Under the pieces are notes generated by a model. It was not told the origin of the DNA and did no database searches. It saw only the letters and a program-made list of their open reading frames with translations. 64,000 bases of DNA from Microvirga tunisiensis (lineage in GTDB: Bacteria; Pseudomonadota; Alphaproteobacteria; Rhizobiales; Beijerinckiaceae): positions 1 to 64,000 of the forward strand of contig NZ_VOSK01000006.1 of the NCBI RefSeq assembly GCF_009296175.1, read 5' to 3'. A program made the position numbers and the translations under genes. This document shows positions 3,151 through 25,456 of this stretch, piece after piece. How positions within the stretch are numbered: the stretch's first letter is position 1; every line of letters begins with the position of its first letter.

Positions 3151-3161
3151 TCGCTCTGTCC

Positions 3162-4031: not shown

Positions 4032-4965
4032 TGTAATGGACCCAGTAACGAGAGGTGAGGAACGAGAAGGCGGTGAAGCAGGCAATGATGATCAGAAGGA
4101 TCCATGCCAGAGCCGACGCATATCCCATGCGGAAATAGGCGAAGCCTTCCTGGTACAGGTACAGGGTGTAGAAGAGGGTCGAGTCGATCGGCCCGCCCGT
4201 GCCCTCGCTGATGATGAAGGCCGGCGTGAAGGCTTTGAACGCATCGATGGTCTGCACGATGCCGTTGAAGAAGATAACCGGTGTAAGCAGCGGAACGGTG
4301 ATCTTGATGAACTGCTGCATCTTGCTGGCGCCGTCGATGCTGGCTGCCTCGTAAACGTCAGACGGGATCTGCCGCAGGCCGGCGAGGAAGATGATCATCG
4401 GCGAGCCGAACTGCCAGACGCTGAGCAGCACCAGGGTATAGAGGGAGTAGTTCGGATCGGAGATCCAGCTCGGCCCATCGATGCCGAAGAAGGCCAGTGC
4501 CACGTTGGCAAGACCGTCCTTGGCGAAGAGCTGGCGCCAGAGCACCGCGATGGCGACGCTCGCGCCGAGCAGTGATGGCAAATAGAAGAGAGCCCGGTAG
4601 AGAGGCAGCCCGGCAATGCCGCGATTGAGGACCATGGCCAGACCGAGCGCGAAAGCGAGCTTCAGCGGGACGGCCATGATGACATAGGTAAACGTCACCT
4701 GCATGGAATGCCAGAACTTCACGTCATTGGTGACAATGCGCTGGTAGTTGGCCGTTCCGATGAACTGCGGATCCTGCAGCAGGTCGAAATTGGTAAAGGA
4801 CAGATAAAGAGATGCGAGCGTCGGGCCGAGGGTCAGCCCGAGAAAGCCGATGAGCCAGGGCGCCAGGAAGGAATAGGAGACGAGCGCACGGGACAATCCC
4901 TCCCGACCCTTGCTGCGCTTTTCCGGCTCGATGATCGTCAATGGAATTTGAGCAGTTGTTGTCAT
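4024..4965 (-). CDS. ABC sugar transporter permease, MalF/UgpA type
   Basis: 313 aa, six predicted membrane spans after a short cytoplasmic N-terminus. The EAA motif is DVYEAASIDGASKMQQF. It forms a heterodimer with the MalG-type permease immediately downstream, in CUT1 style. It lies 88 bases after the Tat-exported binding-protein gene on the same strand, so it is probably co-transcribed with it. Confidence 0.9.
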   Translation of the reverse strand: MTTTAQIPLTIIEPEKRSKGREGLSRALVSYSFLAPWLIGFLGLTLGPTLASLYLSFTNFDLLQDPQFIGTANYQRIVTNDVKFWHSMQVTFTYVIMAVPLKLAFALGLAMVLNRGIAGLPLYRALFYLPSLLGASVAIAVLWRQLFAKDGLANVALAFFGIDGPSWISDPNYSLYTLVLLSVWQFGSPMIIFLAGLRQIPSDVYEAASIDGASKMQQFIKITVPLLTPVIFFNGIVQTIDAFKAFTPAFIISEGTGGPIDSTLFYTLYLYQEGFAYFRMGYASALAWILLIIIACFTAFSFLTSRYWVHYND

Positions 4966-6334: not shown

Positions 6335-6509
6335 GTGGCGTGTCTCCCTCTTGGGCGCCGCTTCGACGGTCGCCCGAACTTGATGCCTCTTTCGGCGACA
6401 ATTCTTTTTCTTTGGTGCCCGTCGCGCCGAGGGTTCGGTCCCTTGACCCCATACGTTACGGGAGCGCTTTTCTTTTGTCGCCATCCGACGTGAAGCTAAA
6501 ATTTAGAAT

Positions 6510-6631: not shown

Positions 6632-6646
6632 ATTTGTCAGACAAAT
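6632..6646. promoter_or_regulatory. Candidate operator ATTTGTC-A-GACAAAT
   Basis: A perfect 7-bp inverted repeat with one central base lies 50 bases upstream of the Gfo/Idh/MocA start. TTGTCnGACAA is the shape expected of GntR/FCD-family operators. No regulator for it is identified. Confidence 0.45.
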
Positions 6647-6696
6647 TTAACGCTCGAACAACCTTTAAGAGCGAAGCAGCAGGAGAACCCAAGAGA

Positions 6697-7947
6697 ATGG
6701 ATCGCTCAAGCAGGAAACGCATTGCCCTCATCGGCACAGGCCACCGCGGCACGGGCATGTGGGGGATCAACGTGGTCAAGGGCTACAGCGACTACGTGGA
6801 AATCGTCGCCCTCTGCGACACGAACCGGCTCCGCGCCGAGCGAGCCCGGGGTTTTTTGGGGATCGATGCCCCCATCTATACCGACGCCCAGGAGATGATT
6901 GCGACGGTCAAGCCGGACCAGGTCATCGTCTGCACCCGGGATTCGAATCACGATGAAATGATCGTACGGGCACTCGAGGCCGGGGTGGACGTCATCACCG
7001 AGAAGCCGATGACGACCACGGCCGAGAAGGTGCGGCGCATCCTCGAGGCCGAGAAGCGCACCGGACGCCGCGTCGATGTGACCTTCAACTACCGCTACGC
7101 TCCGACCGTTCGGAAGATCAAGGAACTCCTCAACTCTGGCGTGATCGGTGATGTGACCTCGATCGATTTCCACTGGTTTCTCGACAACAAGCACGGCGCG
7201 GACTACTTCCGCCGCTGGCACGCGGTCGAAGAGAATTCCGGCAGCCTGTTCGTGCACAAGAGCACCCACCATTTCGACCTGATGAACTGGTACCTGGACG
7301 ACGATCCGGAGCAGGTCTTCGCTTTCGCGAGCCTGCGCAAATACGGCAAGGTCAATCCTTTCCGCGGTGAGCGCTGCAAGACCTGCCCGCATGCAAGCTG
7401 TTGCGACTACTATGTCGACATCAGCAAGGATCCCTGGCTTGAGGCCCTGTACGAGGATCCGTCCCGCGAAGATGGCTACGTCCGCGATGCCTGCGTGTTC
7501 CGCGAAGAGATCAACATTCCCGACACGATGTCGGCCATGATTCGCTATCAGAAGGGCGTGCAGGTCACCTATTCGGTGAACACCTACATGCCGATCGAGG
7601 GCCATTTCATCGCCTTCGACGGCACCAAGGGCCGCATCCAGATGCGCCAATTCGAGCGCCAGCCCTGGGAAACCCCGGAACACGACGAGATCCAGCTCGT
7701 GCGGAATTTCGGCGGCGTCGAGACGATCCAGGTCCCGCATGAGCCAGGCGGGCACTTTGGCGGCGATCCAAAACTGCAGGACATGCTCTTCAAGCCGGGG
7801 ACCCCTGACCCGCTGAACCAGCGTGCCGGTTCGCGCGCCGGCGCCATGTCGGTGCTGTGCGGAATCGCGGCGCTGCAGAGCTCGAAGACGGGCCAGATGG
7901 TCAGCGTCTCGAAGCTGCTCGATCCGGCGCAGGCCATTGCCGCTTGA
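6697..7947 (+). CDS. Gfo/Idh/MocA-family oxidoreductase with a cysteine cluster
   Basis: 416 aa. The NAD(P)-binding start is RIALIGTGHRGTGMWG, and VITEKPMTTTAEK is the EKP motif. An unusual cysteine-rich segment, CKTCPHASCC (from residue about 227), is followed by a further Cys in DACVFREE, which may bind a metal or be structural. ATG 6697 is preferred because AGGAG lies 11 bases upstream; an upstream in-frame ATG at 6634 sits inside the operator palindrome. It is divergent from the transporter operon and probably co-transcribed with the dehydrogenase gene that follows. Confidence 0.8.
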   Translation: MDRSSRKRIALIGTGHRGTGMWGINVVKGYSDYVEIVALCDTNRLRAERARGFLGIDAPIYTDAQEMIATVKPDQVIVCTRDSNHDEMIVRALEAGVDVITEKPMTTTAEKVRRILEAEKRTGRRVDVTFNYRYAPTVRKIKELLNSGVIGDVTSIDFHWFLDNKHGADYFRRWHAVEENSGSLFVHKSTHHFDLMNWYLDDDPEQVFAFASLRKYGKVNPFRGERCKTCPHASCCDYYVDISKDPWLEALYEDPSREDGYVRDACVFREEINIPDTMSAMIRYQKGVQVTYSVNTYMPIEGHFIAFDGTKGRIQMRQFERQPWETPEHDEIQLVRNFGGVETIQVPHEPGGHFGGDPKLQDMLFKPGTPDPLNQRAGSRAGAMSVLCGIAALQSSKTGQMVSVSKLLDPAQAIAA

Positions 7948-8031: not shown

Positions 8032-9144
8032 ATGATCGCGAGCGAGAATTTCTCGGCGGACGTGATTCGCGCCCAGATCGAGGCGATCCTGCGGGCCTGG
8101 GGCATGAGCGAGGAGAAGCTGCGCCTGACGGCCGAGGTGATGGTCGAGACCGATCTGCGCGGCATCGACTCCCATGGAATCTCGATGCTGACCCAATATG
8201 CCCAGATGCAGAAGGCCGGGCAGCTCCAGCTGCAGGCCGAACCCCGGATCGTCCGGCAGAGCGCCAGCACGGCCCTGCTCGATGGCGGAGCCGGTTTGGG
8301 TCATCCTGCCGCCCTCATGGGCATGAACCTCGCCATCGAGAAGGCGCTGGCGCACGATGTCGGCATCGTGTCGGTGTTCAACTCCCACCATTTCGGCGCC
8401 GCGGGCTATTACGCCACGATGGCCGCGGAACGGGGGCTGATCGGTGTGGTATCGTCGACGACCCGCGTGATCTCCGTCGTGCCCACGAACGGGGTCGAGC
8501 GCGTGCTCGGCACCAATCCAATCGCCGTCGCGGTGCCGGCCGGTCGTCATCCGAGCCTTTGCGTCGACATGTCCACCAGCGTCGTCGCGGCCAACAAGGT
8601 CAAGGTCTATGCCCTGCAGGGCAAGGACCTTCCGGCCGGATGGGTGATCGATGGCGATGGACAGCCTGTCACCGATTCCGGCCGAGCCTTCCGTCAGATT
8701 TTCGAGGGCCAGGAAGGTGGCCTCACACCCGTGGGCGGCGATGGCAGCGATATGGGCGGGCACAAGGGTTACGGGCTCGGCCTGATCGCCCAGATCCTGT
8801 CGGGCAGCCTGTCGGGCGCTTCCTTCTCGCCGGTCCGGAACAGGACGCAGAAACCGTCCGACCCCGACAATATCGGCCACTTCTTCATGGCCCTGAATCC
8901 AGCGGCCTTCCGGCCGTTCGATGCCTTCCAATCGGACGTGGAGGTGGTCATCGATACCCTGCATGCCACGAAGCCGGTCCACGAGGACGAGCCGGTTCTG
9001 GTGCCGGGCGAACCGGAATGGGCCGCTCGCGAAGAGCGGCTCGTCACGGGCATTCCGATCCCTGAGACGTTGAAACTGAAGGTGCGGGAAATTGCCGAGG
9101 CCGCGGGCGCCCCTTACCTGCTGCAGCCGGCGATGGCCGCCTGA
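8032..9144 (+). CDS. Malate/L-lactate dehydrogenase-family (Ldh2) oxidoreductase
   Basis: 370 aa. This family (YlbC/YjmC/DpkA type) uses NAD(P)H to interconvert 2-hydroxy and 2-keto acids or cyclic imines. Its marks are the catalytic segment GIDSHGISML, NSHHFGAAGYY, VVAANKVKVYA and HKGYGLGL. It follows the Gfo/Idh/MocA gene by 84 bases on the same strand and faces the second binding-protein gene. In this context a sugar-acid or keto-acid reductase is likely, but the substrate is not determined. Confidence 0.85.
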   Translation: MIASENFSADVIRAQIEAILRAWGMSEEKLRLTAEVMVETDLRGIDSHGISMLTQYAQMQKAGQLQLQAEPRIVRQSASTALLDGGAGLGHPAALMGMNLAIEKALAHDVGIVSVFNSHHFGAAGYYATMAAERGLIGVVSSTTRVISVVPTNGVERVLGTNPIAVAVPAGRHPSLCVDMSTSVVAANKVKVYALQGKDLPAGWVIDGDGQPVTDSGRAFRQIFEGQEGGLTPVGGDGSDMGGHKGYGLGLIAQILSGSLSGASFSPVRNRTQKPSDPDNIGHFFMALNPAAFRPFDAFQSDVEVVIDTLHATKPVHEDEPVLVPGEPEWAAREERLVTGIPIPETLKLKVREIAEAAGAPYLLQPAMAA

Positions 9145-9195: not shown

Positions 9196-10473
9196 TCAGC
9201 GCCCGCGCGCCAGAATCGAATTCGCCTCGGTGATGTATTGCTTTGCCGCGGCGGATGCGGCTGAGCGTCCAAAGCCGACCTGCTCGTTGACGCGCCTGAG
9301 CAGAACCTGGATCTCGCCGGCTCCTTGCGGCGGCGCAGGCGGGATCGGCCCGACGCGCTGCGATACCTCCGCGATGAAGTCGACCACCTTCCTGCTCATT
9401 TCATCAAGCTGATCCGACACCGCCTGCCGTGTCGACGGCGAGGCCGGCACCCCGCGCTCGACGCCGAGGACCCGCGCGCCTTCCGGATCCTTGACGGTGA
9501 AGTTGGCGAACTTCACCACCTCCGGGGCAACCTTCGAGCGGGCATAGATGCTCCACATCATCGAGGGCTTGAGATACTGCCCCGGATGGGGTCCGGCGCC
9601 CTGCGGATAGGTGGCGATGCCGAGCGTGTTCTTGTTGATGGCCTGGAAGCCGACGAACTGGTTGGAGTGGTTGAAGGCGCAGCCCGCGCGTCCCTGCGTG
9701 AGCAGGCTGGTATCGGGGCCGCTCTTGTCGAGCGCCTGAATGTCTGCGGGCGGACAGGCCTTCACCTCGCGCATCTTCACCCAGAGCGAGAGCCAATCGC
9801 CGATATCGGCCTCTTCGAACCCGAGCTTGCCGTCCTCGGTATAAAGCGCCTTGCCGCGCTGGCGCAGCCAGTTCTCGAAAGCGGCCTCGTCCGCACCTGC
9901 GTCGACGGTACCGAAATAGGAACCGTCATGGGCTTTCGTGACCTCGGCGCAGATCGCGGTGAACTTGTCCCAGCTCGTTCCGATGACGGGCTCATCGACG
10001 CCGGCCTTCTGAAAAGCCGCCTTGTTGTAGATCAGGGCATGGGAGTTGTTGCCGAGGTTGATGGCATAGAGCTTTCCGTCCACCTTGCAGCTGTCGAGCG
10101 AGGCCTGACCGAAATCGCCGATCTGCAAGTCCTTCCCCATGAATTCATCGAGGGGAAGAAGGACGCCGCGCCGCGCATATTCGGCGAGGTAGCGATAATC
10201 CATCTGGATCAGATCGGGAGCATTGCGTCCGGCGACCTGCGTCGCAAGCCTCGGCCAATAATCGGTGAAGGACAGGGATTGGCCGTCGATCCTGATGTGC
10301 GGATTGCGCTGCTGGTACAGAGCCGCCGCCTTCAGGGTTCTGTCGGCGCGCTCCTTGGATCCCCACCAGAAGATCCGGAACCGAGTGCTCTCCTGCGCCC
10401 ATGCGGCCTTGTGGGCAAGCATGGACGCACCTGCGGCTGCCATGAAGGTCCGTCGCGAGACGTTTCCTACCAT
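9196..10473 (-). CDS. Tat-exported ABC sugar-binding protein (paralogue 2)
   Basis: 425 aa, close paralogue of 5054-6334 (shared WWGSKERADRTLKAA, QMDYRYLAEYARRG, FENWLRQRGKALYTEDG). Twin-arginine signal VSRRTFMAAAGASML ending AWAQ. ATG 10473 has AGGAG 9 bases upstream. It is the last gene of the long operon running from 17861 and has no permease genes of its own beside it. It therefore probably works with the CUT1 permeases at 3162-4965 and widens or retunes their ligand range. Confidence 0.87.
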   Translation of the reverse strand: MVGNVSRRTFMAAAGASMLAHKAAWAQESTRFRIFWWGSKERADRTLKAAALYQQRNPHIRIDGQSLSFTDYWPRLATQVAGRNAPDLIQMDYRYLAEYARRGVLLPLDEFMGKDLQIGDFGQASLDSCKVDGKLYAINLGNNSHALIYNKAAFQKAGVDEPVIGTSWDKFTAICAEVTKAHDGSYFGTVDAGADEAAFENWLRQRGKALYTEDGKLGFEEADIGDWLSLWVKMREVKACPPADIQALDKSGPDTSLLTQGRAGCAFNHSNQFVGFQAINKNTLGIATYPQGAGPHPGQYLKPSMMWSIYARSKVAPEVVKFANFTVKDPEGARVLGVERGVPASPSTRQAVSDQLDEMSRKVVDFIAEVSQRVGPIPPAPPQGAGEIQVLLRRVNEQVGFGRSAASAAAKQYITEANSILARGR

Positions 10474-10520
10474 CGTTGCTGTCTCCTGTTCGTCAGGACG
10501 TTTTCTTTGATGCGGCCATG

Positions 10521-11387
10521 TCAGACGACCGTGCGGTGTCGCTCGATGCAGGTGGCGAGCACCTCGTCCATCGGCTTCGTCCACCAGTTGTTCTCGGAGA
10601 AGATCTCCACCTCCGAATAGCCGGCATAGCCGACCGCTTCGACCTCTTGGCGAATGCCGCGCAGGTCGATCACGCCGTCACCCATCATGCCCCGGTCGAG
10701 CAGCAGGTCCGTGGTGGGCACGAGCCAGTCGCAGACGTGATACGCGAGCAGCCGGTCCTGGCCGGTGCGGCGGATCTGCTCCCTCAATTCCGGATCCCAC
10801 CAGACATGGTAGACGTCGACCGCAAGGCCGAGCATTCCCGTGCGTTCCGGGTCGACCCGGTCGCAGATGTCGAGAGCCTGGCGCATGGTGTTCACGCAGG
10901 CGCGGTCGGCCGCATACATGGGATGCAGCGGCTCGATCGCGAGCGGGAGGCCTGCCTGCCGGGAATAGTCGAGCAGCGTCGCGATGCCGTCCTCGACCAT
11001 GGCGCGCGCCGCGTCGATGTCCTTCGACGGTTGCGAACCTGGGCGAGAGTATTGCGGCAGCCCGCCGACCACGAGCACCAGGCAGGGCGCGCCGAGCGCA
11101 ACTGCCTCGTCGACGGCGCGGCGGTTGTCGTCGGTGGCCTCCGGCAGCCGCGCCGCATCGGCCGGGAACATGCCGCCGCGGCAATAGCCGGAGAGTTCGA
11201 GCCCTGCATCCTTCACGGCGGCCACGGCCCGGTTGAGTCCGACCGCGGCCACCTGGTCGCGCCAGGGCGAGATCGCTTTGATCTCGGCTCTGGCGCAGGC
11301 CTCCGTGATGGCGACGAGGTCGCCCTGCTTCCTCACCGTCGCCGTGTTGATCGACAGGGTGCGGTGATCGCCTGTAAAGTCACGCAT
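10521..11387 (-). CDS. Sugar phosphate isomerase/epimerase-like TIM-barrel protein
   Basis: 288 aa, xylose-isomerase-like TIM barrel. Metal-site residues are suggested by IEPLHPMYAADR, VDVYHVWWDPEL, YHVCDWL and YSEVEIFSENNWW (Glu, Asp/His, His and Glu at strand ends). Members include inosose dehydratases and keto-sugar epimerases. The start is 3 bases beyond the DUF993 stop, so the two are translationally close. The likely role is isomerisation or hydration of a keto-sugar made by the neighbouring Gfo/Idh/MocA enzyme (inferred). Confidence 0.8.
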   Translation of the reverse strand: MRDFTGDHRTLSINTATVRKQGDLVAITEACARAEIKAISPWRDQVAAVGLNRAVAAVKDAGLELSGYCRGGMFPADAARLPEATDDNRRAVDEAVALGAPCLVLVVGGLPQYSRPGSQPSKDIDAARAMVEDGIATLLDYSRQAGLPLAIEPLHPMYAADRACVNTMRQALDICDRVDPERTGMLGLAVDVYHVWWDPELREQIRRTGQDRLLAYHVCDWLVPTTDLLLDRGMMGDGVIDLRGIRQEVEAVGYAGYSEVEIFSENNWWTKPMDEVLATCIERHRTVV

Positions 11388-11390
11388 CTC

Positions 11391-12581
11391 TTACGCCTCC
11401 ACCCCATGCGTGGCCAGGACGAAGCGCATGCGCTCGACCGCGAGGTCCGGATCCCGCAGGAGGCCGGCCTTGTCCGCCAGACGGAAGAGCTCGGCGAGAT
11501 GCAGGGTCGAGCGGGCGCTCTCCTGTCCGCCGACCATGGTGAAGTGATCCTGATGGCCGTTGAGATAGGCCATGAACACCACCCCCGTCTTGTAGAACCG
11601 CGTCGGCGCCCGGAAGATGTGCCGCGACAGCGGAACCGTCGGCGCGAGCGCCTCGTGGAACGCGTCGAGGTTGCCGGCCGCGAGGCTCACCAGAGCCGAC
11701 GAGGCCGCCGGCGCGATGGCATCGAAGATACCGAGCAGCGCATGCGAATAGCCCTGGTCGTCGCCTGCGATCAGCTCGGCATAGTTGAAGTCGTCGCCCG
11801 TATACATGCGCACGCGCTTGTCGAGGCGGCGGCGCATGGCGATTTCCTTGTCCTTGTCGAGGAGGGAAATCTTGACGCCGTCGACCTTCTCCGCATGGCT
11901 GTTGATGATCGAAACGCACGTATCCATCGCGGCATCGAGGTCGCCCGTGCCCCAATAGCCGGCAAGCGCCGGATCGAACATGTCGCCGAGCCAGTGGATG
12001 ATCACCGGCTCCTTCGCCTGAGACAGAATGCGATCGTAGACCTTGACGTAGTCGTCGGCGGACCTGGCGACGCGGGCGAGCGCGCGCGACGCCATGAGAA
12101 TGATGCGCCCGCCGACGGCTTCGATGGCGGCGAACTGCTCCTCGTAGGCGCGGATCACGTCATCGATGCTGCGGGCCGCGTCAGGCGCCAGATGGTCGGT
12201 GCCGGCGCCGGAGAACACGAGGGCGTCGCCCCGCGCCTTCGCCGCGCTGACGGAGCGGCGGATCAGCTCGAGCGAGGTAGGCCAGTCGAGACCCATGCCG
12301 CGCTGTGCGGTGTCCATCGCTTCGGCGACGCCGAGGCCGAGATCCCACAGACGCTCGCGATAGGCGATCGTCTTGTCCCAGTCGATGGCGGCCTGCAGCC
12401 AGGGGTCCGCATCGGCGAGCGGATCAGCGACCACATGGGCGGCCGAGAACGCGATGCGGTTCATCGGCCCGCTCACCTTGTCCGGGAAGGATTTCGGCGC
12501 GGAGAGCTTATAGGTTTCCAGGCCGCGATCCGCCTGCGGCAGGCGGATCGACAGGGCGCTGATGGTCTCAGGCCGGTTCAT
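11391..12581 (-). CDS. DUF993 protein, dihydrodipicolinate synthase-like (putative class I aldolase)
   Basis: 396 aa. I recognise it as the DUF993 family, which is related to DapA-type TIM-barrel lyases but has no firmly known reaction. The segment [15 protein letters not shown] (Lys about 237) matches the position and context of the Schiff-base Lys in DapA enzymes (GIK then a short strand), followed by [17 protein letters not shown] 12581 overlaps the end of the upstream Gfo/Idh/MocA gene by 14 bases. In the operon it lies between an oxidoreductase and an isomerase, so a retro-aldol step on an oxidised sugar is a reasonable hypothesis. Confidence 0.75.
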
Positions 12582-13755
12582 GCTGCTTCTCCTTCGCGGC
12601 GCCCACATTCAGCGGCGGCACATCGACCCAGCGGCGCTCGCGCCAGCTCTCGAGAGCGCATTCGACGAGCTGAACGCCCTTGGCGCCTTCCACCAGCGTG
12701 TAGCGATAGGGCGCATCCTCGACCACGTGACGGACGAACATCTCCCACTGGGTCTTGAAGCCGTTGTCGTAGACCACATTGTCGGGCACCGGCTGCCAGG
12801 TGTTGTAGAAATCGATGGTCTGCTTCTGGTCCGGATTCCAGACCGGACGCGGCGTGGCCTGACGCGGCTGGATCACGCAATCGGTGAGACCGGCGACGGC
12901 GGAACCATGCGTTCCGTCCACATGGAAGGTGACGAGATCGTCCCGATAGACGCGGGTGCACCACGACATGTTGATGTGGGCGATCACGCCGCCATCGAGC
13001 ATGAAGGTGGCATAGGCGGAATCGTCGGCGGTCGCCTGATAGGGCTTGCCCTTTTCGTCCACGCGCTCGGGGATATGCGTCGAGCCCACGCAGGAGACCG
13101 AGCGCACCTCGCCGAAGAGGTTGTCGAGCACGTAGCGCCAGTGGCAGACCATGTCGAGGATCATGCCGCCGCCGTCCTCGGAGCGGTAGTTCCAGGACGG
13201 ACGCTGCGCGGGCTGGCCCCAATCGCCCTCGAATACCCAGTAGCCGAACTCGCCGCGCACCGAGAGCATGCGGCCGAAGAAGCCGGAATCGCGCAGCATC
13301 TTCAGCTTCTGCAGGCCGGGCAGGAACAGCTTGTCCTGCACGGTTCCGTTCTTCACGCCCTTCTCGCGGGCGAGACGGACGATCCGCAGGGCTTCCGGCA
13401 GATTCGTGGAAATCGGCTTCTCGCAATAGATGTGCTTGCCGGCATTGATCGCCTGGTCCAGCAGGGTCGGACGCATCTGCGTCGTCGCGGCATCGAAGAA
13501 GATCTCATCCTTCGGGTCCGCGATGGCAGCGTCGAGGTCGGTCGTCCACCGGTCGATGCCGTGCGCCTTGGCGAGTTCCTGGATCTTCTCCGCATTGCGC
13601 CCGACGAGGATCGGATCGAGCTGCACCTTCGATCCGTCGGACAGCGTCACGCCGCCCTCGGCGCGGATGGCTGCGACGGAGCGAATGAGATGCTGGTTCA
13701 TTCCCATGCGGCCTGTCACGCCATGCATGACGATGCCTAACCTGCGCTGAGTCAT
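12568..13755 (-). CDS. Gfo/Idh/MocA-family oxidoreductase (operon with DUF993)
   Basis: 395 aa. It starts [18 protein letters not shown] (Rossmann), has the motif [14 protein letters not shown] (EKP with catalytic Lys) and the later [13 protein letters not shown] segment. A GGAGA ribosome-binding site lies about 8 bases upstream of ATG 13755. It follows the enolase-superfamily gene by 15 bases and overlaps DUF993. It is clearly different from the two other family members in the window. Probably NAD-dependent oxidation of a sugar or cyclitol. Confidence 0.83.
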
Positions 13756-13770
13756 AATAAAGATCTCCTA

Positions 13771-15156
13771 TCAAAGATGGTGTTGTGTGAGCGGAACGAG
13801 GCTGCTCCAATCAGGCTCGGCGCCGCTGGCGAAACCTGGAGCAGACAGGAGAGACGTGGTCGGGAGCGACCCGCGTTCGAAAGCAAGGCCGATGCGGCCA
13901 CCCTGCTTCCGGTAGAGATCGGGATGCGCGGCCGCAAAGCGCGCCGCCTCCGCATCCGGTGCGGGGCCGAAGCCCTCGACGTAATGGTGGCCGTTGCGCT
14001 CGGCATGGGCCATGCCGAGCGTAGCGACGAGCGCCGTGTCCTGCTGAATCCCAAGCCCGGCCTGGCACGTGAGATCCTCGGCGGAGACGAAGAACCGGCC
14101 CGTCCGCGGCTCATTCAGAATCGAGACGCGGACGGCATTCAGGACAGACTTGTAGAACCCCTTGCAGGCCTTCGAGGATACGCCGCGATAGCCGAGCTCG
14201 ACCGCACGCGGGAAGGCGTCGTAATCGCCATCCGCCTCGTCGATGATGAGCGGGATCTCGCCGGCGAGATCGCCCAGGGGCTCAGCGAAGGTCTCTGCCC
14301 TGTCGAACGGCTGCTCAATGTAGAGCAGGTGCTCCCGGAAGGCGCGCAAGCCGCCGCCGCTCATTGCCTGGAGAAGAATCCGCAGGCGTTGCGGATCGTA
14401 CTGCTCGTTGGCGTCGAGGGTGGCGCGATAGTCCGGAACATGTCGCGACAGGAGATCGTGGATGGCCTGCAGGCGCGCGATGTCCGCATCGACGTCGCCG
14501 CCGATCTTGATCTTGAAGAGCCTCAAGTTGGCCAGCCGAATCTCGTCTTCGAGCCCGCCGGCTCCATCGAGCGAATCCAGCAATCCGATCGTGTGCCGCA
14601 GCAGGACCGCGCCGACCGGCTGAACGTCCGCCAGGAAGGACTGGATGCGCTCGGCGCCGAGATCCGGCGTCTGTCGCGCATCGATGCCGAAGACATTGCG
14701 CCGCAATCCTTCAGGGAAATTGAGCTTCAGCGCCTTGAGGGCAGCATCGGCGACAGCCTTGTCGACGAGCGCGGGTCCGAACGAGGCGACGAGCCCCGGC
14801 AACCCCTGGTCGGCGGCCCACATCTTCTGGGCCGCGAAGCCGCGCCCATGATGGCCGAAGGCCGTGTCCCAGTCCTGCGCCTCGGCATAGTTGCGGGCGG
14901 CCTCGCCGAGGCTCGCCTTCAGGTCGGCGATCGTATCCTGCGGTGACTTGGCCGGGTTCTTGTCGAACCATTTCGGCATCATCATCTCGGCGGTGACGCC
15001 GGTCGCCAGGCCGGCGCCTTCCACCTCGACGACAACCCGAACGAAGGCCTGCGGCGCCTCGTCGACGGTCACGAGACCGAATCGGAATGGGCGCGCAAAG
15101 CGCATGGAACGCTCGAAGGTCTGGATCTCGCGAATGCGGAGCCGGGGAGCTGACAT
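13771..15156 (-). CDS. Enolase-superfamily (mandelate racemase/muconate lactonising-like) protein
   Basis: 461 aa, with an N-terminal capping domain and C-terminal barrel. LFKIKIGGDVDADI supplies the KxK base motif on the second barrel strand, and LDANEQYD, IEQPFDRAETF and IIDEADGDYD look like the three metal-ligand strands (Asp, Glu, Asp/Glu). The C-terminal SSKACKGFYKS holds a further Lys. These mark an acid-sugar dehydratase, racemase or cycloisomerase. It starts 5 bases after the ABC ATPase stop and is 15 bases before the Gfo/Idh/MocA gene. It does not resemble the galactarolactone cycloisomerase I recall from Agrobacterium. Confidence 0.78.
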   Translation of the reverse strand: MSAPRLRIREIQTFERSMRFARPFRFGLVTVDEAPQAFVRVVVEVEGAGLATGVTAEMMMPKWFDKNPAKSPQDTIADLKASLGEAARNYAEAQDWDTAFGHHGRGFAAQKMWAADQGLPGLVASFGPALVDKAVADAALKALKLNFPEGLRRNVFGIDARQTPDLGAERIQSFLADVQPVGAVLLRHTIGLLDSLDGAGGLEDEIRLANLRLFKIKIGGDVDADIARLQAIHDLLSRHVPDYRATLDANEQYDPQRLRILLQAMSGGGLRAFREHLLYIEQPFDRAETFAEPLGDLAGEIPLIIDEADGDYDAFPRAVELGYRGVSSKACKGFYKSVLNAVRVSILNEPRTGRFFVSAEDLTCQAGLGIQQDTALVATLGMAHAERNGHHYVEGFGPAPDAEAARFAAAHPDLYRKQGGRIGLAFERGSLPTTSLLSAPGFASGAEPDWSSLVPLTQHHL

Positions 15157-15161
15157 GATCG

Positions 15162-16007
15162 TTAGTCCAGCTGGCCGCGGGCGTAGAAATGGCCGCGGAT
15201 TCTCTGCGTGAGATCGACGAAGGTCGGGTGCCCCATGATCTCCAGGTTGCGCGGTCGGGGCAGCGTGACATCGTAGATGGCGGCAATCGAACCCGGCCGC
15301 TCCGACATGACGACCACGCGGTCCGCGAGGAACACCGCCTCGGGAATCGAATGGGTGATCAGCATAATCGTCTTGCCCGTCTCGTGGTGGATGCGCTGCA
15401 GTTCCAGGTTCATGCGCTCGCGCGTCATGGCATCGAGCGCGCCGAAGGGCTCGTCCATGAGGACGATCTTCGGATCGTGCACCAGCGCCCGGCAGATGGC
15501 GGCGCGCTGCTGCATGCCGCCGGAGAGCTGCCAGGGATACTTGGCCTGGAAATCCTCGAGCCCCGCCATGGACAGGAGCTTGCGGGCCCGGGCGAGATGG
15601 GTCTCCCGGTCGAGCTTGCGCACCTCGACCGGCATCATCACGTTGCGCAGCACCGAACGCCACGGCAGGAGCACCGGATTCTGGAAGACGATGCCCACAT
15701 CATCCGGCGGCTCCTGTACGGTGACGCCGCCGATCTGCACCTCGCCTTCGGTCGGCGGTATGAGGCCGGCCACGAGTTTCAGGAGTGTGGACTTGCCGCA
15801 CCCGGACGGCCCGACGACGGCGACGAATTCACCGTCGGCAACGTCGAGATCGATCGGCCGCAGAGAGGGAACGTCCCCGCTCCGGGTGCGATAGGTTTTA
15901 GCCAGGTTGCGGATCTGGATCAGCTGGCGAGGCGCGGACGCCTCGCTCTTGGCCTCGCTCTTGGGGACGACACGGAGATGTGCCATGGCGTGCGCCTGTC
16001 TGCTCAC
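15162..16007 (-). CDS. ABC transporter ATPase, nitrate/sulfonate/taurine type
   Basis: 281 aa. Walker A GPSGCGKSTL, Q-loop FQNPVLLPW, signature LSGGMQQR, Walker B IVLMDEPFGALD and H-loop THSI are all present. It energises the SsuC-like permease at 17055-17861 with the binding protein at 16004-17014. I keep the GTG at 16007, which overlaps the upstream stop as GTGA; ATG 15986 is an alternative and neither has a strong ribosome-binding site. This subfamily is not the MalK type, so it is unlikely to serve the CUT1 permeases. Confidence 0.9.
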   Translation of the reverse strand: MSRQAHAMAHLRVVPKSEAKSEASAPRQLIQIRNLAKTYRTRSGDVPSLRPIDLDVADGEFVAVVGPSGCGKSTLLKLVAGLIPPTEGEVQIGGVTVQEPPDDVGIVFQNPVLLPWRSVLRNVMMPVEVRKLDRETHLARARKLLSMAGLEDFQAKYPWQLSGGMQQRAAICRALVHDPKIVLMDEPFGALDAMTRERMNLELQRIHHETGKTIMLITHSIPEAVFLADRVVVMSERPGSIAAIYDVTLPRPRNLEIMGHPTFVDLTQRIRGHFYARGQLD

Positions 16008-17014
16008 TGGGAGGGCGCCTTCGGCAGGAAGTCACGGGTGTAGAAGGCCTTCGGATCGTTCTTCGCCGCCGGGTCGAGTCCGCCGTACTCGATGAGGAGA
16101 TTCACCGTCTCGGCCATGTTGGCATCCGAGACATTGAACGGACGCTGACCCTTCGTCTCTTCCGTGCGGTAGAGCGGGATCGTCAGCTCGAAGCCTTCCT
16201 GCAGCGTATCGGGCTTGCCGGCCTTCGGCAGCGCCTTCAGAACCGCCTGGGTGGCCTCGGCAGGAGCCTTCTCGGCGCCTTCGATCGCCTTGGTGGTCGC
16301 GCTCATGAAGCGGCGGACGAGATCGGCCTTCTCCTTCAGCGTGTCCTTGTGCGCGATGATGCCGGACGAGACGAGGTTGACGCCGTAATCCGCGAACATG
16401 ACCGGCGTGACGTTCTTGCCCGTCGCGTCCTTGATCTTCATGCTCTGGTCCATGACGTAGCCGAGGAGCACGTCGGCCTGACCGTTGATGACCGCATTGA
16501 GCTTCGTCTGCGCGTCGCCGGACACGATGCGCATCTCGCTTTCTTTGAGACCCGCCTTCTTGAGGAAGAGCGGCCAGATCTGCGACATGGAATCGCCCGG
16601 CGTGGTCGCGACCGTCTTGCCGCGCAAATCTTCAGCCTTGCGAATGTTCTTGTCGGAGAAGCCCATGACCGACATGGGGTTCTTCTGCAGCAGCACGCCC
16701 GGCGACGTGACGGGAGCACCCTTCACCGCGGCACGGATCATGGTGGGAACGTCGGCATAGGCGAAGTCGACGGTCTTGGCCGCCACGGCCTGCACCGTCA
16801 CGGCCGAGCCGCGGCCCTCCTGAATTTCGAGATCGATGCCCTCGGCTGCGTAAAGACCTTTTTCCTTGCCGTAGAAGAAGGGTGCATGCTCGCCATAGAC
16901 GTACCAGTTGAGCATCAGCACGACCTTGTCCGCCGCCTGGACCGGCAGCGACACGAAGGGCATGAGAGCCGTGGCGGCAAAGAGGGTAGCTTTCAGGAAC
17001 GTACGTTTCTTCAT
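16004..17014 (-). CDS. ABC transporter substrate-binding protein, NMT1/SsuA-like
   Basis: 336 aa. A Sec signal MKKRTFLKATLFAATALM ends at VQAAD. The mature start VVLMLNWYVYGEHAPFFYGK is the NMT1/THI5/SsuA-like pattern, which binds small N- or S-containing or aromatic compounds (pyrimidine, thiamine precursor, sulfonate). TTPGDSMSQIWPLFL forms part of the ligand pocket region. It is in operon with a permease upstream and an ATPase downstream. The ligand cannot be deduced. Confidence 0.87.
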   Translation of the reverse strand: MKKRTFLKATLFAATALMPFVSLPVQAADKVVLMLNWYVYGEHAPFFYGKEKGLYAAEGIDLEIQEGRGSAVTVQAVAAKTVDFAYADVPTMIRAAVKGAPVTSPGVLLQKNPMSVMGFSDKNIRKAEDLRGKTVATTPGDSMSQIWPLFLKKAGLKESEMRIVSGDAQTKLNAVINGQADVLLGYVMDQSMKIKDATGKNVTPVMFADYGVNLVSSGIIAHKDTLKEKADLVRRFMSATTKAIEGAEKAPAEATQAVLKALPKAGKPDTLQEGFELTIPLYRTEETKGQRPFNVSDANMAETVNLLIEYGGLDPAAKNDPKAFYTRDFLPKAPSQ

Positions 17015-17054
17015 GGACTTCCTCCGATGATTTTATGGGCTCCGCCCTTATGGG

Positions 17055-17861
17055 TCAGGCGGTTGCTGCGAAATCGTGCCGCTGGCTGGCGTGCCAGGGC
17101 ACCGTGAAACGCTCGAGCAGGTCGATGAGCCAGAAGAGAATGACGCTGATCATCGCCAGGATCACGAGAGCCGCGAACATGGTCGGCAGTTCGAAATTGC
17201 CGATGGATCGCTGCAGCACGAATCCGATACCGGAATTGGCTCCGACGAATTCTCCGACGACGGCACCGACGACAGCCAGCGTCACCGAGACTTTCAGGCC
17301 TGCGAAGATGGCCGGCAGCGCATGCGGCAGGCTGACCATGTAGAATGATTGCAGGCGGGATGCCTTCATCGAGCGCACCAAGTCGTGCATCTCGGGATCG
17401 AGGGACTTGAAGCCCTGAACGCCGGCGACGACGACGGGGAAGAAGCCGAGCAGGAAGGCCGAGATCACCTTGGGTGCCATGCCGAAGCCGAACCAGACCA
17501 CGAAGAGCGGCGCCACCGCGACCTTGGGGATCGACTGCGAGAAGACGAGCAGCGGATAGACGTAGGACTCGACCGTCCGCGATCCGGCGATCAGCATCGC
17601 AATCGGGATGCCAAACAGGGCGGAAAGGATAAACCCGCCGAGCGTCGCCGTGGTGGTGGGAACAGCCTCCCTGAGCAGCATGCCGCCTTCATTCCAGAAG
17701 GCCACTGCCACGTCCTTCGGAGGAGGCACCAGATAAGGCGGGATCGCAAAGATCCGCACTGCGAGATCCCAGAGCACGACGGTCAGGATGAGAAGCCCGA
17801 ACGGCTTGATCCAAGCGGAATTCAGCAGGTTTTGACTGGTGCGCGCGAGCTTCGACGTCAT
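17055..17861 (-). CDS. ABC transporter permease, SsuC/TauC type
   Basis: 268 aa, about six membrane spans, BPD_transp_1 family. The ATPase-contact loop is seen in HDLVRSMKASRLQSFYMVSLPHALP, of which the family-typical part is SRLQSFYMVSLPHALP. It is the first gene of the minus-strand operon that runs to 9196. A partly symmetrical TetR-type operator lies 68-83 bases upstream. Confidence 0.87.
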   Translation of the reverse strand: MTSKLARTSQNLLNSAWIKPFGLLILTVVLWDLAVRIFAIPPYLVPPPKDVAVAFWNEGGMLLREAVPTTTATLGGFILSALFGIPIAMLIAGSRTVESYVYPLLVFSQSIPKVAVAPLFVVWFGFGMAPKVISAFLLGFFPVVVAGVQGFKSLDPEMHDLVRSMKASRLQSFYMVSLPHALPAIFAGLKVSVTLAVVGAVVGEFVGANSGIGFVLQRSIGNFELPTMFAALVILAMISVILFWLIDLLERFTVPWHASQRHDFAATA

Positions 17862-17928
17862 GAAGCGTCTTCCTCAAGAGCGTTTCCAAATAAGGGTTTC
17901 ATGGCGGCTTCGGCCGCTCTATGTAACT

Positions 17929-17944
17929 ATCTGGTTAATTAGAT
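17929..17944. promoter_or_regulatory. Candidate TetR operator upstream of the SsuC-like permease gene
   Basis: ATCTGGTTAATTAGAT is an imperfect 16-bp palindrome (ATCT-rrTTAAyy-AGAT; 12 of 16 positions symmetrical). It lies in the 121-base gap between the tetR stop and the permease start. TetR-family regulators usually bind such sites next to their own genes. Binding is inferred. Confidence 0.45.
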
Positions 17945-17982
17945 GCCCGGTTGTCCGACATGTCAAGCGCTGTTTGGAAAAT

Positions 17983-18624
17983 TCAGGCGCGCACGCCCGC
18001 CAGGACGAAATCGACCACGTGGTCGATGCGCTCCTTCATGGCCGGCTCGGATAGGAGCTCGCGTCCGAAGGCCACGGACAGAGTGTAGACGTTCGACAGA
18101 TAGAAGTAGCAGAGCCCGGCAATCGACACGTAAAGCTGGACCGGATCGATGCCCGGACGAATGGCCTTGGATTTCTCGCCGCGCTTCAAGATGACCCCGA
18201 TCGTCTCGATGACCGGGGAGTTCATGGTGTGCACCTGCGTGGACTTCTTCAGATGCTTGGCGCGGTGCTGGTTCTCGGCATTCAGGAGCATCATGAACTC
18301 GGGATATTGGACGAAATAATTCCACGTGAAACGCACGAGTTCCTCGAGCGCCTGCAGGGGAGAAAGCTCCTCCAGGTGCAGTTCCCGCTCCGCGGCACGA
18401 ATATGGTCGTAGGCCGCTTCGAGCGTTGCGAGAAACAGGGCTTCCTTGCTCCCGTAATAATAGTAGAGCATGCGCTTGTTGGTGCGGGCAGCCTCCGCGA
18501 TCTGGTCTACGCGCGCCCCGCCATAGCCGTGACCGGCGAATTCAGCCGTCGCCGCATCGAGGATCCGCCTTTTCGTCGCTTCGGCGTCTCGAACGGCTTG
18601 CTTGCTGACTGCGGGGGCGTTCAT
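17983..18624 (-). CDS. TetR-family transcriptional regulator
   Basis: 213 aa. N-terminal helix-turn-helix ATKRRILDAATAEFAGHGYGGARVDQIAEAA then NKRMLYYYYGSKEALF, of which YYYYGSKEALF is the classic end of the TetR HTH. The C-terminal ligand domain is helical and unassigned. It lies upstream and on the same strand as the transporter/catabolic operon starting at 17861, with a palindrome between. It probably represses that operon in response to the imported compound or a metabolite. Confidence 0.87.
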   Translation of the reverse strand: MNAPAVSKQAVRDAEATKRRILDAATAEFAGHGYGGARVDQIAEAARTNKRMLYYYYGSKEALFLATLEAAYDHIRAAERELHLEELSPLQALEELVRFTWNYFVQYPEFMMLLNAENQHRAKHLKKSTQVHTMNSPVIETIGVILKRGEKSKAIRPGIDPVQLYVSIAGLCYFYLSNVYTLSVAFGRELLSEPAMKERIDHVVDFVLAGVRA

Positions 18625-18903: not shown

Positions 18904-20370
18904 TCAGGCCTTGCGCGCCACCGGCAAGGCCGGCGGCAAATCACCTTCAAGAGCAACGACCTTTCCAGGATTGAGAATGTTCCGGGGGTCGAGAGCCCTC
19001 TTCAGCGTCTTCATGAGATCCAGGGCGACCGGATCCTTGTAGCGCGCCAGCTCGTCGCGTTTGATGAGGCCGACCCCGTGCTCGGCGGAAATCGAGCCAT
19101 TCATGGCGTGAACGATGTCATGGACGATCCGGTTGAAGCGCTCCCATTGGGCTAAAAAGAGCGATTTTTCCATCTCGATGGGCTGGGTCAGGTTGAAATG
19201 AATGTTGCCGTCCCCGAAATGGCCGAAGGCGCACACGCGCACGCCGGGCAACGCCTCCTCGCAGGCCCTGCTCGCCGTCAGGATGAAATCCGCGACATCC
19301 GAGACCGGCACCGAAACGTCGTGCTTGATCGATCCACCCTCAAGCCCCTGGACGTCGGAGAGGCTTTCCCTCAGGTGCCAGAGCGCCGCATTCTGAGCCT
19401 CGCTTGCGGCAATCGTCGCATCCTCGATCGCGCCGTTCTCGAAGGCGGCTCCCAAGGCCTTCTCCAACTGCTCGCGCAGGTCGAGTTCGGGGTCCGGCGA
19501 CGAGAATTCGATCAGAGCGTAGGCGGCGTGATCACCGCTCAGCGGTCGAACGGCGCCGGGTGCGTGCTTGAGCACGATTTCCAGGGCGAAGCGCGGCATG
19601 AACTCGAAGGCGGTGAGCTCGTCGCCCATGGTCTGGCGCAGCGTTTCGAAAAGTTCGAGCGCCGCATGCGGAGAGGCGCAACCGACGAAGGCCACCACCT
19701 GTGTCTTGGGCTGCGGGAAAAGCTTCAGCACCGCCGCCGTGACGATGCCGAGCGTTCCTTCCGAACCGATGAAGAGGTTCTTCAGGTCGTAGCCGGTGTT
19801 ATCCTTGCGCAGGCTTTTGAGGCCGTTCCAGATCCGGCCGTCCGCGAGGACGACCTCGAGGCCGAGAACGAGATCGCGGGTATTGCCGTAGCGCAGCACG
19901 TTCACGCCACCGGCATTGGTCGAGATATTGCCGCCGATCCGGCAGGAGCCTTCGGAGGCGAGCGACAGTGGAAAAATGCAATCCACCTCCTTCGCCGAGT
20001 CCTGAACCGTCTTCAGGACGCAACCGGCCTCGGCCGTGATGGTGGCGTTGAAGGCGTTGACCTCGCGGATGCGGTCGAGCCTGGCGAGCGACAGGACGAT
20101 GCCTCTGTGAGGCACACCACCCCCGACGAGACCCGTATTGCCGCCCTGCGGCACCACGGCGACGTTCGCTGCGGCACATTCCCGAACGACGAAGGCCACC
20201 TCGTCCGTGCTGCCGGGACGGACCACGGCCAGGGCCGTGCCGCGATAGAGCTTCCGCTCCTCGACGAGATAGCCTTCCATTTCGGCGGGATCGACGATGA
20301 CGTGCTTGGCTCCCAGGCGTGCTGAGAGCACGCCCAGGAGATCGGAGTGGGATTCGGGCATAGGGATCAC
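18904..20370 (-). CDS. FAD-binding oxidase, GlcD/D-2-hydroxyacid dehydrogenase type
   Basis: 488 aa. The PCMH FAD-binding domain shows VVPQGGNTGLVGGG and GGNISTNAGG, and the C-terminal domain shows FGHFGDGNIHFN and ISAEHGVGLIKR. These are standard for glycolate oxidase GlcD, D-lactate and D-2-hydroxyglutarate dehydrogenases. GTG 20370 has AAGG close upstream; ATG 20361 is the alternative. It follows the DapA-family gene on the same strand. In a pathway that makes glycolaldehyde or lactate-type products it could oxidise the resulting 2-hydroxyacid (inferred). Confidence 0.87.
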   Translation of the reverse strand: MIPMPESHSDLLGVLSARLGAKHVIVDPAEMEGYLVEERKLYRGTALAVVRPGSTDEVAFVVRECAAANVAVVPQGGNTGLVGGGVPHRGIVLSLARLDRIREVNAFNATITAEAGCVLKTVQDSAKEVDCIFPLSLASEGSCRIGGNISTNAGGVNVLRYGNTRDLVLGLEVVLADGRIWNGLKSLRKDNTGYDLKNLFIGSEGTLGIVTAAVLKLFPQPKTQVVAFVGCASPHAALELFETLRQTMGDELTAFEFMPRFALEIVLKHAPGAVRPLSGDHAAYALIEFSSPDPELDLREQLEKALGAAFENGAIEDATIAASEAQNAALWHLRESLSDVQGLEGGSIKHDVSVPVSDVADFILTASRACEEALPGVRVCAFGHFGDGNIHFNLTQPIEMEKSLFLAQWERFNRIVHDIVHAMNGSISAEHGVGLIKRDELARYKDPVALDLMKTLKRALDPRNILNPGKVVALEGDLPPALPVARKA

Positions 20371-20424: not shown

Positions 20425-21363
20425 TTACGCAGCAGCGGCCTGCTGTCGAGCGGTCATTTCGGCGGCGAGGAGCGCCCTGGCGGCTTCCTTGATCTCCCCG
20501 TGGATCGCCGGATCGGCCTCGGTGAGGAGCGGCAGGATCGGCCCCATATCGGCCACGCCCGACAGGGACACCGCCGTGTGCAGCACCCGGATCGCGTTGT
20601 GGCGCTCGCGGAGGGCTTCGAGCGGCAGGAAGACTTCGAGCAGGCGCTTGGCCTCTGCCTCGTCGCCGCGCTTCAGCGCATGAAGGAAGGACATGGACAG
20701 ATGGGGCGCGATGCAGACGCAGCCTGCGGTGAAGCCGGCGAGCTTGAAGTGCACGAGATGCGGCAGCGCCGGAGGCTCGCCGAAGCCGCTGACGATCCGG
20801 TCGGCCCCGACCGCATCGATCAGCTCCTGCAGATAGGCATCCTGCGTCAGGTCGGCCCGCGGAACGGCGTACTTGATGCCGAAGACGGCGCCCTGTTCCA
20901 CAAGCCGTCCCATCGCCTTGGCGGGCACGTACTGGTCGGTCTTGATATAGACGATCAGCGGTACGCCGGAGCGGTCGACGAAATCCTCCAGCCCGCGGAC
21001 CACGCCGTCGGGCGTCTGCGGCGCGATCATCGGCAGCGCCATGGCGACGGGATAGCGGCGGGACTTCAAGATCGCCGCCTCGTCGACGAGCTTGCCCCAA
21101 TCGGGTCCGACCGACGGGATCAGCCAGGTGTCGTCGGCGACCGATCCCTCGAGGCTGTCGAGCCATTCGGCAAACTTCGACACCGGCCAGTTGTGAACAT
21201 TGGCGTTGCCGCCATAGAGCAGCGTCGAGACGCCGCCGGCCTCGAGATGGCGGATCAGCTTCGCATTGGCGTCCCGGTTGACCTCGAAATCGGGCGTCAG
21301 GGCAAACGGCGGAACCGCCAGAACGGAGCGGGCGAGTTCAGAGGTTTCGATCTTTGTCAGCAT
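20425..21363 (-). CDS. Dihydrodipicolinate synthase/N-acetylneuraminate lyase-family protein
   Basis: 312 aa TIM barrel. Schiff-base Lys is K164 in FGIKYAVPRA, with a Tyr in LIVYIKTDQY and the early LLYGGNANVHNWP pocket. Families of this type include 2-keto-3-deoxy-aldonate aldolases and dehydratases (KdgD, AraD). The IlvD/Edd dehydratase at 23674 would make a 2-keto-3-deoxy acid, so this is probably the next enzyme. A TTGTATG site lies just upstream at 21380-21386. Confidence 0.82.
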   Translation of the reverse strand: MLTKIETSELARSVLAVPPFALTPDFEVNRDANAKLIRHLEAGGVSTLLYGGNANVHNWPVSKFAEWLDSLEGSVADDTWLIPSVGPDWGKLVDEAAILKSRRYPVAMALPMIAPQTPDGVVRGLEDFVDRSGVPLIVYIKTDQYVPAKAMGRLVEQGAVFGIKYAVPRADLTQDAYLQELIDAVGADRIVSGFGEPPALPHLVHFKLAGFTAGCVCIAPHLSMSFLHALKRGDEAEAKRLLEVFLPLEALRERHNAIRVLHTAVSLSGVADMGPILPLLTEADPAIHGEIKEAARALLAAEMTARQQAAAA

Positions 21364-23638: not shown

Positions 23639-23673
23639 CTTTTGCACCGCGAAGCGTGGGGAGTGAAGCAATA

Positions 23674-25395: not shown

Positions 25396-25405
25396 TCCTC
25401 CCCAC

Positions 25406-25441: not shown

Positions 25442-25456
25442 TTCTCGTATTTGCTC

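Follow-up and report, generated by a model that had tools for sequence, protein, structure and literature searches.

Related Pathways and Gene Regions

In the levoglucosan and 3-keto-glycoside pathways (LgdA, DgpA), Gfo/Idh/MocA dehydrogenases act with TIM-barrel isomerase-like partners, while the non-phosphorylative sugar-acid pathways (glucarate, galactarate, and arabinonate; KdgD) combine enzymes of the enolase and dihydrodipicolinate synthase (DHDPS) superfamilies. Here, we describe an operon of Microvirga tunisiensis that recalls both, located in the first 64,000 nucleotides of contig NZ_VOSK01000006.1 (assembly GCF_009296175.1); this whole stretch is referred to as the window. The operon joins a predicted NMT1-type ABC importer to an enolase-superfamily enzyme (ENO), a Gfo/Idh/MocA dehydrogenase (GfoA), a protein of the DUF993 family, a TIM-barrel protein (TIM), and a CUT1-type receptor. 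The pairing of GfoA with TIM resembles the LgdA and DgpA pathways, but the equivalog scores here lie far under the cut-offs and those pathways have no known counterpart of DUF993, ENO, or the acid-type importers. An L-arabinonate dehydratase gene and a KdgD-like gene lie near the operon, a likeness to the non-phosphorylative pathways; in contrast to these, the lysine pair of ENO is of the MLE type and Pfam does not recognise the protein itself, DUF993 forms a family apart, and GfoA and TIM are additional.

A more extensive likeness was found with the uncharacterised SMc04130–SMc04139 region of Sinorhizobium meliloti, in which all tags other than SMc04130 were assigned from gene order only. Identities to the window proteins are 51% for TetR, 69% for GfoA, 69% for DUF993, 43% for ENO, and 60% for TIM, and the likeness extends to a neighbouring operon of the window (CUT1 permeases, 73 and 69%; receptor, 54%; GfoC, 58%; GfoB, 63%; SMP-30, 52%). 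The S. meliloti stretch differs in its gene order and in having no NMT1 importer. SMc04130 is the TIM homologue and has been solved as 3ju2. We take the SMc tags to be chromosomal; a record of strain Ak57 named pSymB (3.72 Mb) carries the SMc04130 region and may be a mislabelled chromosome.

In Paenarthrobacter nicotinovorans, plasmid pAO1 has a sugar cluster, presumably for an oxidative xylose pathway, in which GfoA (57%) and DUF993 (50%) stand side by side with a glycerate kinase; no ENO, TIM, NMT1, or TetR of this type was seen in the stretch examined. These three genes (L116, 12886–16430) lie behind an aldehyde dehydrogenase and a GMC oxidoreductase. Genes of the S. meliloti region are touched on in passages of two papers (PMC11387232, PMC12542648), and a table of the latter, a 2025 proteome study, gives the SMc04132, 33, 35, 38, and 39 proteins one module number. 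The open-licence literature yielded no description of the gene combination, the operator, or a role of DUF993, and no functional description under DUF993, the SMc tags, the PDB codes, or pAO1. The enzyme superfamilies themselves are already known.

Operon Organization and Conservation

Eight genes run on the minus strand from 17861 to 9196:

17055..17861, minus strand: ABC importer permease, TauC/SsuC-like, first gene of the operon (BPD_transp_1, 2e-29; below every NCBIfam equivalog cut-off)
16004..17014, minus strand: NMT1/THI5-like periplasmic receptor (NMT1, 5.6e-46; SsuA family 67.5 bits, under the cut-off of 163.5)
15162..16007, minus strand: ABC importer ATPase (ABC_tran; best model taurine-type, 230 bits, under the cut-off of 357)
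13771..15156, minus strand: ENO, enolase-superfamily enzyme (MR_MLE_C in alignment members, invariant residues, structural model)
12568..13755, minus strand: GfoA, Gfo/Idh/MocA dehydrogenase (Pfam; match to PDB 3oqb, 1.7e-209)
11391..12581, minus strand: DUF993 protein, candidate class I lyase (Pfam; Lys246 is numbered from the open reading frame start at 12608)
10521..11387, minus strand: TIM, xylose-isomerase-like TIM barrel (AP_endonuc_2; homologue of SMc04130)
9196..10473, minus strand: CUT1 receptor with a twin-arginine (Tat) signal, extra copy (SBP_bac_1/8; RRTF)

Reading frames and a Pfam scan (BPD_transp_1, NMT1, ABC_tran, GFO_IDH_MocA, DUF993, AP_endonuc_2, and SBP_bac_1/8 along the operon) confirmed the identity, strand, and order of the genes. 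The longest frames gave gaps, in gene order, of 40, −4, 5, 15, −41, 3, and −64 bases. Placing the DUF993 start at ATG 12581, behind an AAGGAG ribosome site, reduces its overlap with GfoA from −41 to −14, and a CUT1 receptor start at ATG 10473 (AGGAG) moves the TIM/receptor junction from −64 to +47; the ENO start was corrected to ATG 15156. With junctions of −14 to +47 bases, the tight eight-gene arrangement given in a preliminary description of the locus is upheld. A consensus scan of the operon detected no promoter-like site between the ENO and GfoA genes and one on the minus strand ahead of the NMT1 gene (17058–17030, 9/12). Its totals, 3 promoter-like and 7 terminator-like matches, were close to those of shuffled sequence (1.9 and 7.2), and consensus promoters and terminators were therefore rejected as evidence.

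To follow the genes beyond the window, we used the best 80 loci of at least 591 DUF993 relatives in one species-genome collection, a sample in which near relatives are over-represented; presence was judged by score limits inside the DNA stretch around each locus, and gene calls in unannotated loci are rough. Homologues of the window proteins were found as follows: DUF993 80, GfoA 76, TIM 75, TetR 63, ENO 53, ATPase 39, NMT1 37, and permease 37. GfoA, DUF993, and TIM occur together in 73 of the 80, and every locus with an NMT1 importer (37/37) also has ENO. Among 289 genomes drawn evenly from the class (E limits 1e-30 for ENO and 1e-60 for TIM and NMT1), DUF993 was present in 25, ENO in 21, TIM in 27, and NMT1 in 1, the own genome. 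DUF993 accompanies ENO in 17 of these genomes (Fisher p 5e-18) and TIM in 23 (8e-28). Co-occurrence of DUF993, the enolase, and the NMT1 receptor, the check suggested at the outset, gave a positive result. The expectation that the genes stay together in relatives was borne out in most of the 80 loci. For DUF993 and ENO it held in 11 of the 17 class genomes having both (<10 kb apart on one contig) and failed in the other 6, where they lie on different contigs (five) or 1.7 Mb apart (one). Even within the genus DUF993 is patchy, being present in 11 of 37 genomes.

The last of the eight genes, the CUT1 receptor at 9196–10473, shares 68% identity with the receptor of the neighbouring CUT1 operon (5054–6484), and among nine distinct same-genus loci this extra copy was found in the window and L130 only; L027/L129 and L028/L127, apparently the same contigs by their equal lengths, were each counted once here, with both rows kept in the residue alignments. 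The receptor's assignment as a founding member of the operon was accordingly rejected, and the preliminary description, which counts it with the operon, is not upheld on this point. In L130 (6548–10984), the genes for the NMT1 receptor and for GfoA are each split into two matching pieces, possibly through frameshifts or assembly errors. By these comparisons, the set is a conserved seven-gene operon plus a lineage-specific receptor gene. What the sequences themselves show is an importer joined to ENO-GfoA-DUF993-TIM in one conserved operon, behind a conserved palindrome. The claim that this is a conserved catabolic system without a published description agrees with the locus comparison and the search of the open-licence literature.

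Predicted TetR Operator and Promoter

The TetR gene and palindrome that had been reported ahead of the operon are both present, together with a candidate promoter:

17918..17943, minus strand: imperfect palindrome TCTAATTAACCAGATAGTTACATAGA, candidate TetR operator, core 17924–17937 (motif TAACN6GTTA)
17938..17966, minus strand: candidate promoter TTGACA (17966–17961), 17-base spacer, TCTAAT (17943–17938), overlapping the operator; same in 9 same-genus loci
17983..18624, minus strand: TetR-family repressor gene (TetR_C_29, Pfam)

All nine distinct same-genus loci share TTGACA-N17-TCTAAT and the palindrome between TetR and the operon; this promoter lies outside the rule of the consensus scan, which demands an A at position 2. 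TAACN6GTTA occurs once in the window against 0.03 expected. Across the 80 loci we found 32 sites in 22 loci, compared with 0–4 sites for each of ten other spacers; by rough gene calls, 27 sites fall between genes and 5 within them. On 17 plasmid loci there were 18 sites versus 0–6 for control spacers. In S. meliloti, an exact site precedes both the CUT1 and the core operons.

A stricter form, TAACYRGNTRGTTA, has a single location in the own genome and likewise a single one per genome in eight relatives; every one of these is at the operon promoter, and two more distant genomes gave no match. The reversed TAACYRGNTRGTTA control gave one match in the own genome and matches in 2 of the 8 relatives, so that the count is not above chance and it is the position that speaks; the own-genome assembly (8.83 Mb, 1022 contigs, 8.78% contamination) may add foreign contigs to such whole-genome counts. 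These observations suggest that the palindrome is likely a TetR operator of the TAACN6GTTA type, and that the neighbouring TetR protein is likely a dedicated repressor of the operon.

DUF993 as a Candidate Schiff-Base Lyase

The window protein belongs to DUF993 (PF06187) with 642.5 bits against a gathering threshold of 24, over positions 1–382 of 382. Residue alignments were built from 113 loci (L027–L139) and the window, with 108 locus rows for DUF993, 97 for TIM, 94 for GfoA, and 70 for ENO. Lys246 of DUF993 is invariant (109/109 rows), and in the AlphaFold model (pLDDT 82) it lies within strand 242–248, which we counted as the sixth of the barrel. In DHDPS, the Schiff-base lysine sits on the sixth barrel strand. 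Aligning the DUF993 profile to Pseudomonas aeruginosa DHDPS placed GVKIS over GIKEA, with Lys246 on the GIK lysine, and YTGDD over YSGDD, but the whole-sequence score (E 0.028) is no better than noise. A glycerate kinase (DUF4147/MOFRL, which we take to be this enzyme) adjoins DUF993 in L116 and L132 and is no more than 6 kb away in L117 and L118. Structures have been solved for relatives of DUF993 (4dnh), GfoA, and TIM (3oqb, 3ju2, 3qc0), which are listed as uncharacterised or by family only.

Other DUF993 settings were also observed. A second cluster type (57–62% identity; L117, L119, L120, L121, L123, L132) has a gene content that differs from locus to locus, drawn from CoA-transferase, acyl-CoA dehydrogenase, enoyl-CoA hydratase, ETF, aldehyde dehydrogenase, glycerate kinase, and CUT1 importers, and several members have TAACN6GTTA-like sites ahead of their operons (two mismatches allowed, so that some matches are chance). 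On a Streptomyces plasmid (L122, 8998–10188), the neighbours of a DUF993 gene (43% identity) include an FAD monooxygenase and a polyketide synthase of type I, a context that suggests a biosynthetic use of the family.

ENO, GfoA, and TIM

Although ENO itself is not recognised by Pfam, MR_MLE_C is matched by 22 of 34 members of its alignment. K215-x-K217, D248, E281, D306, and K329 are present in 71/71 rows, down to 31% identity in a haloarchaeon. In the AlphaFold model (pLDDT 93), K215 and K217 lie in strand 213–217 and the other five active-site residues at or beside strand ends. The MR_MLE domain of its relatives, three metal carboxylates, the KxK motif, and the second lysine place ENO in the enolase superfamily, the residue roles being presumed by analogy with that superfamily. 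Enolase-superfamily enzymes need a carboxylate on the substrate. An ENO homologue in Rhizobium johnstonii lies beside KduI/IolB, GH39, and 2-hydroxyacid dehydrogenase genes, and one in Halomontanus is near heparinase II/III and sulfatases.

GfoA has the EK motif and catalytic Asp and His of Gfo/Idh/MocA proteins (E112-K113, D201, and H205 in 95/95 rows), and it scores below the NCBIfam cut-offs for levoglucosan dehydrogenase (66/650 bits) and inositol dehydrogenase (74/355 bits). TIM carries the Glu-Asp-His-Glu set of AP_endonuc_2 proteins (E152, D191, H217, and E259 in 98/98 rows), which by analogy we take to be a metal site. The invariant residues of GfoA, TIM, and ENO fit active enzymes.

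Importers Exchanged Around Constant Enzymes

In place of the NMT1 importer, some loci have tripartite (TTT) or Bug-type systems. With TctA and TctC both counted, the importers in the 80 loci are NMT1 in 37, TctA with TctC in 14, and TctC alone in 14, with none found in 15. Mapped on a DUF993 tree of 91 rows, 22 of them without an importer label and many of its branches weak, the labels require a minimum of 11 changes versus 27.6 for shuffled labels; well-supported branches alone require 5, 4, and 5 changes for the three labels. Annotated plasmids have the same enzymes surrounded by TTT genes in some cases and MFS genes in others. In L124, of the same genus, TetR stands directly ahead of ENO and the enzymes are kept with no NMT1 importer within the stretch. 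In these comparisons, the NMT1 importer is an exchangeable predicted entry port, which makes it weak evidence for an amino- or sulfo-sugar substrate.

The Neighbouring CUT1 Island

On both sides of the operon lie further genes:

1241..2116, minus strand: SMP-30/gluconolactonase-like lactonase, start uncertain; 52% to its S. meliloti homologue
2119..3165, minus strand: GfoC, Gfo/Idh/MocA dehydrogenase; 58% to S. meliloti
3162..4085, minus strand: CUT1 permease 2; 69% to S. meliloti
4024..4965, minus strand: CUT1 permease 1; 73% to S. meliloti
5054..6484, minus strand: CUT1 receptor of the neighbouring operon, YesO-like by solved-protein matches; 54% to S. meliloti
6634..7947, plus strand: GfoB, Gfo/Idh/MocA dehydrogenase; 63% to the Gfo adjoining the S. 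meliloti core operon
8032..9144, plus strand: Ldh2, malate/L-lactate dehydrogenase-like, convergent neighbour kept in the genus; best NCBIfam model L-sulfolactate dehydrogenase, 243 bits, under the cut-off of 500
18904..20370, minus strand: GlcD-like FAD-linked oxidase, upstream, kept in the genus
20425..21363, minus strand: DHDPS/KdgD-like protein, upstream, kept in the genus; below KdgD cut-offs

Within the limits of their stretches, the same-genus loci again have GfoC, a CUT1 permease, the CUT1 receptor, GfoB, Ldh2, the core enzymes, TetR, and GlcD; Ldh2 is present in 2 of the 80 loci and lies outside the conserved core. The solved proteins closest to the receptor at 5054–6484 are YesO (5z6b), 4r6k, and 4ovj, with 2uvh further off. 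We presume that YesO and 2uvh bind pectin-derived acidic oligosaccharides. The CUT1/Gfo/SMP-30 operon is probably a partner of the core operon, since S. meliloti has homologues of the CUT1 part by its core operon and five of the SMc proteins share a module number.

Further genes border this island. An L-arabinonate dehydratase at 23635–25395 scores above its NCBIfam cut-off (1037.9 versus 882 bits) and is overlapped by a galactose-1-epimerase-like frame (25109–26545). At the far end of the island, 303–1169 encodes an NAD-dependent epimerase-family protein (nearest model Azf, 154/400 bits), with a similar protein in L027.

Proposed Pathway and Alternative Explanations

A carboxylated sugar is indicated jointly by the replacement of the importer by TTT/Bug receptors, by the enolase-type enzyme, and by a CUT1 receptor of the YesO line. 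A uronate-like acid is favoured on indirect evidence: the interchange of acid-type importers, the carboxylate that ENO should need, the genes beside some ENO homologues, the YesO-near receptor, and the lactonase in the island. We therefore propose, as a tentative reading that we rate slightly short of an even chance, that the operon is induced by its substrate and serves the catabolism of a carboxylated, uronate-like sugar by uptake, oxidation, isomerisation, and aldol-type cleavage. In this proposal, the TetR protein would sit on TAACN6GTTA over the −10 box and be released when substrate or product binds. The acid would enter via the NMT1-type ABC importer, or in relatives via TTT/Bug systems or a CUT1 importer, and the CUT1 importer, GfoB, GfoC, and the SMP-30 lactonase would probably supply a larger acidic glycoside or its lactone. 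ENO, with its paired lysines and three metal carboxylates, could take the proton next to the carboxylate, leading to epimerisation or loss of water; GfoA may convert a hydroxyl to a ketone, and the metal-dependent TIM enzyme may shift or epimerise that ketone. DUF993 could then form a Schiff base via Lys246 and cleave the chain, one fragment going to glycerate or a near relative. A broader claim is possible, though we consider it unlikely: that DUF993 is a new family of Schiff-base C–C lyases which, together with TIM and GfoA (or an SDR), makes up a widespread, undescribed oxidise-isomerise-cleave route from acidic sugars to glycerate in Pseudomonadota and Actinomycetota, with interchangeable importers and one dedicated TetR switch.

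Several observations weigh against the proposed uronate route or parts of it. The lysine stretch alone aligns between DUF993 and DHDPS with an E of only 3, and two unrelated chains score as well as DHDPS does (5cwb 0.011, 5fhy 0.026). The Pfam DHDPS domain was found in 0 of 18 DUF993 proteins scanned, and hhalign of DUF993 versus a six-row DHDPS alignment, both shallow profiles, gave no signal. ENO was not found in 27 of the 80 loci, including 12 of the 14 with TctC alone, which implies that ENO is dispensable for the route. Racemases and cycloisomerases likewise have MLE-type active sites, and the ENO homologues in Natrononativus and L139 have no surrounding uronate genes. The CoA-transferase and acyl-CoA dehydrogenase of the second DUF993 cluster type are unexplained by a simple uronate route. 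Finally, the exact TAACN6GTTA is absent from 58 of the 80 loci, so an exact site does not precede every core operon; 22 of these 58, Bradyrhizobium and kin, have a one-mismatch variant ahead of the permease.

The rival explanation closest to the LgdA/DgpA pathways is an oxidative route through a 3-keto intermediate, with a neutral glycoside or an anhydrosugar as substrate, in which GfoA or GfoB would oxidise C3 as happens in levoglucosan or C-glycoside breakdown, TIM would eliminate or isomerise, and DUF993 and ENO would act on the freed sugar. Matches of GfoA to 6a3f (1.9e-16; listed as a putative dehydrogenase, which we take to be levoglucosan dehydrogenase) and of GfoB to DgpA (7xr9, 1.1e-18), in an island with several Gfo proteins and TIM-barrel isomerases, are in keeping with this. 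However, GfoA reaches 66 bits where the levoglucosan dehydrogenase model requires 650, and a neutral sugar leaves the TTT/Bug and NMT1 importers and the carboxylate-needing enolase-type enzyme unexplained; we consider this route rather improbable, at about one chance in four. Catabolism of a cyclitol or inosamine (rhizopine-like), with the Gfo proteins as inositol-type dehydrogenases, TIM as an IolE/IolI-like enzyme, and DUF993 replacing IolJ, is distinctly less likely than that. IolG is the best NCBIfam model of both GfoA (73.8 bits) and GfoB (95.6 bits), TIM weakly matches IolI (1i60), and a KduI/IolB family gene lies beside one ENO homologue, but the IolG cut-off of 355 lies well above these scores, no IolB, IolC, or IolD family was detected among the window genes scanned at 1–34 kb, and cyclitols offer no carboxylate to ENO.

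The amino- or sulfo-sugar substrate proposed in the preliminary description fares worst and appears very unlikely. The importer is most like taurine/sulfonate systems, L-sulfolactate dehydrogenase is the best NCBIfam model for the neighbouring Ldh2 (243/500 bits), and in Chelatococcus a PIG-L deacetylase lies some kilobases upstream. Against this, the importer falls short of the NCBIfam cut-offs for Tau/Ssu sulfonate importers (TauC 91/342, SsuA 67.5/163.5, taurine ATPase 230/357 bits), as Ldh2 does of its own, and Ldh2 is outside the core; TTT, Bug, MFS, or CUT1 systems replace the importer around the same enzymes, and L124 lacks it. On these grounds, the NMT1 importer was rejected as evidence that the substrate is a sulfonate or an amine. 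It is also improbable, if marginally less so than a cyclitol, that DUF993 and TIM form a loose cassette serving several substrates, with enzymes drifted to unrelated roles. The presence of DUF993 in CoA-transferase/acyl-CoA dehydrogenase clusters, in the Streptomyces polyketide synthase cluster, and on pAO1 could be read in this way, but all cluster types have the same residues with little or no variation and the same kind of operator motif stands ahead of operons in both main ones. The uronate-like acid remains our preferred reading.

Significance

At least 591 relatives of DUF993 occur in a single genome collection, many of them in root-nodule and soil bacteria. The operon probably lets many soil and plant bacteria consume an acidic sugar by a route of which the open-licence literature yielded no description. 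The conserved operon, the predicted operator, and the exchange of importers reduce the problem of DUF993 function to a few direct tests, and a family of unknown function gains a testable role.

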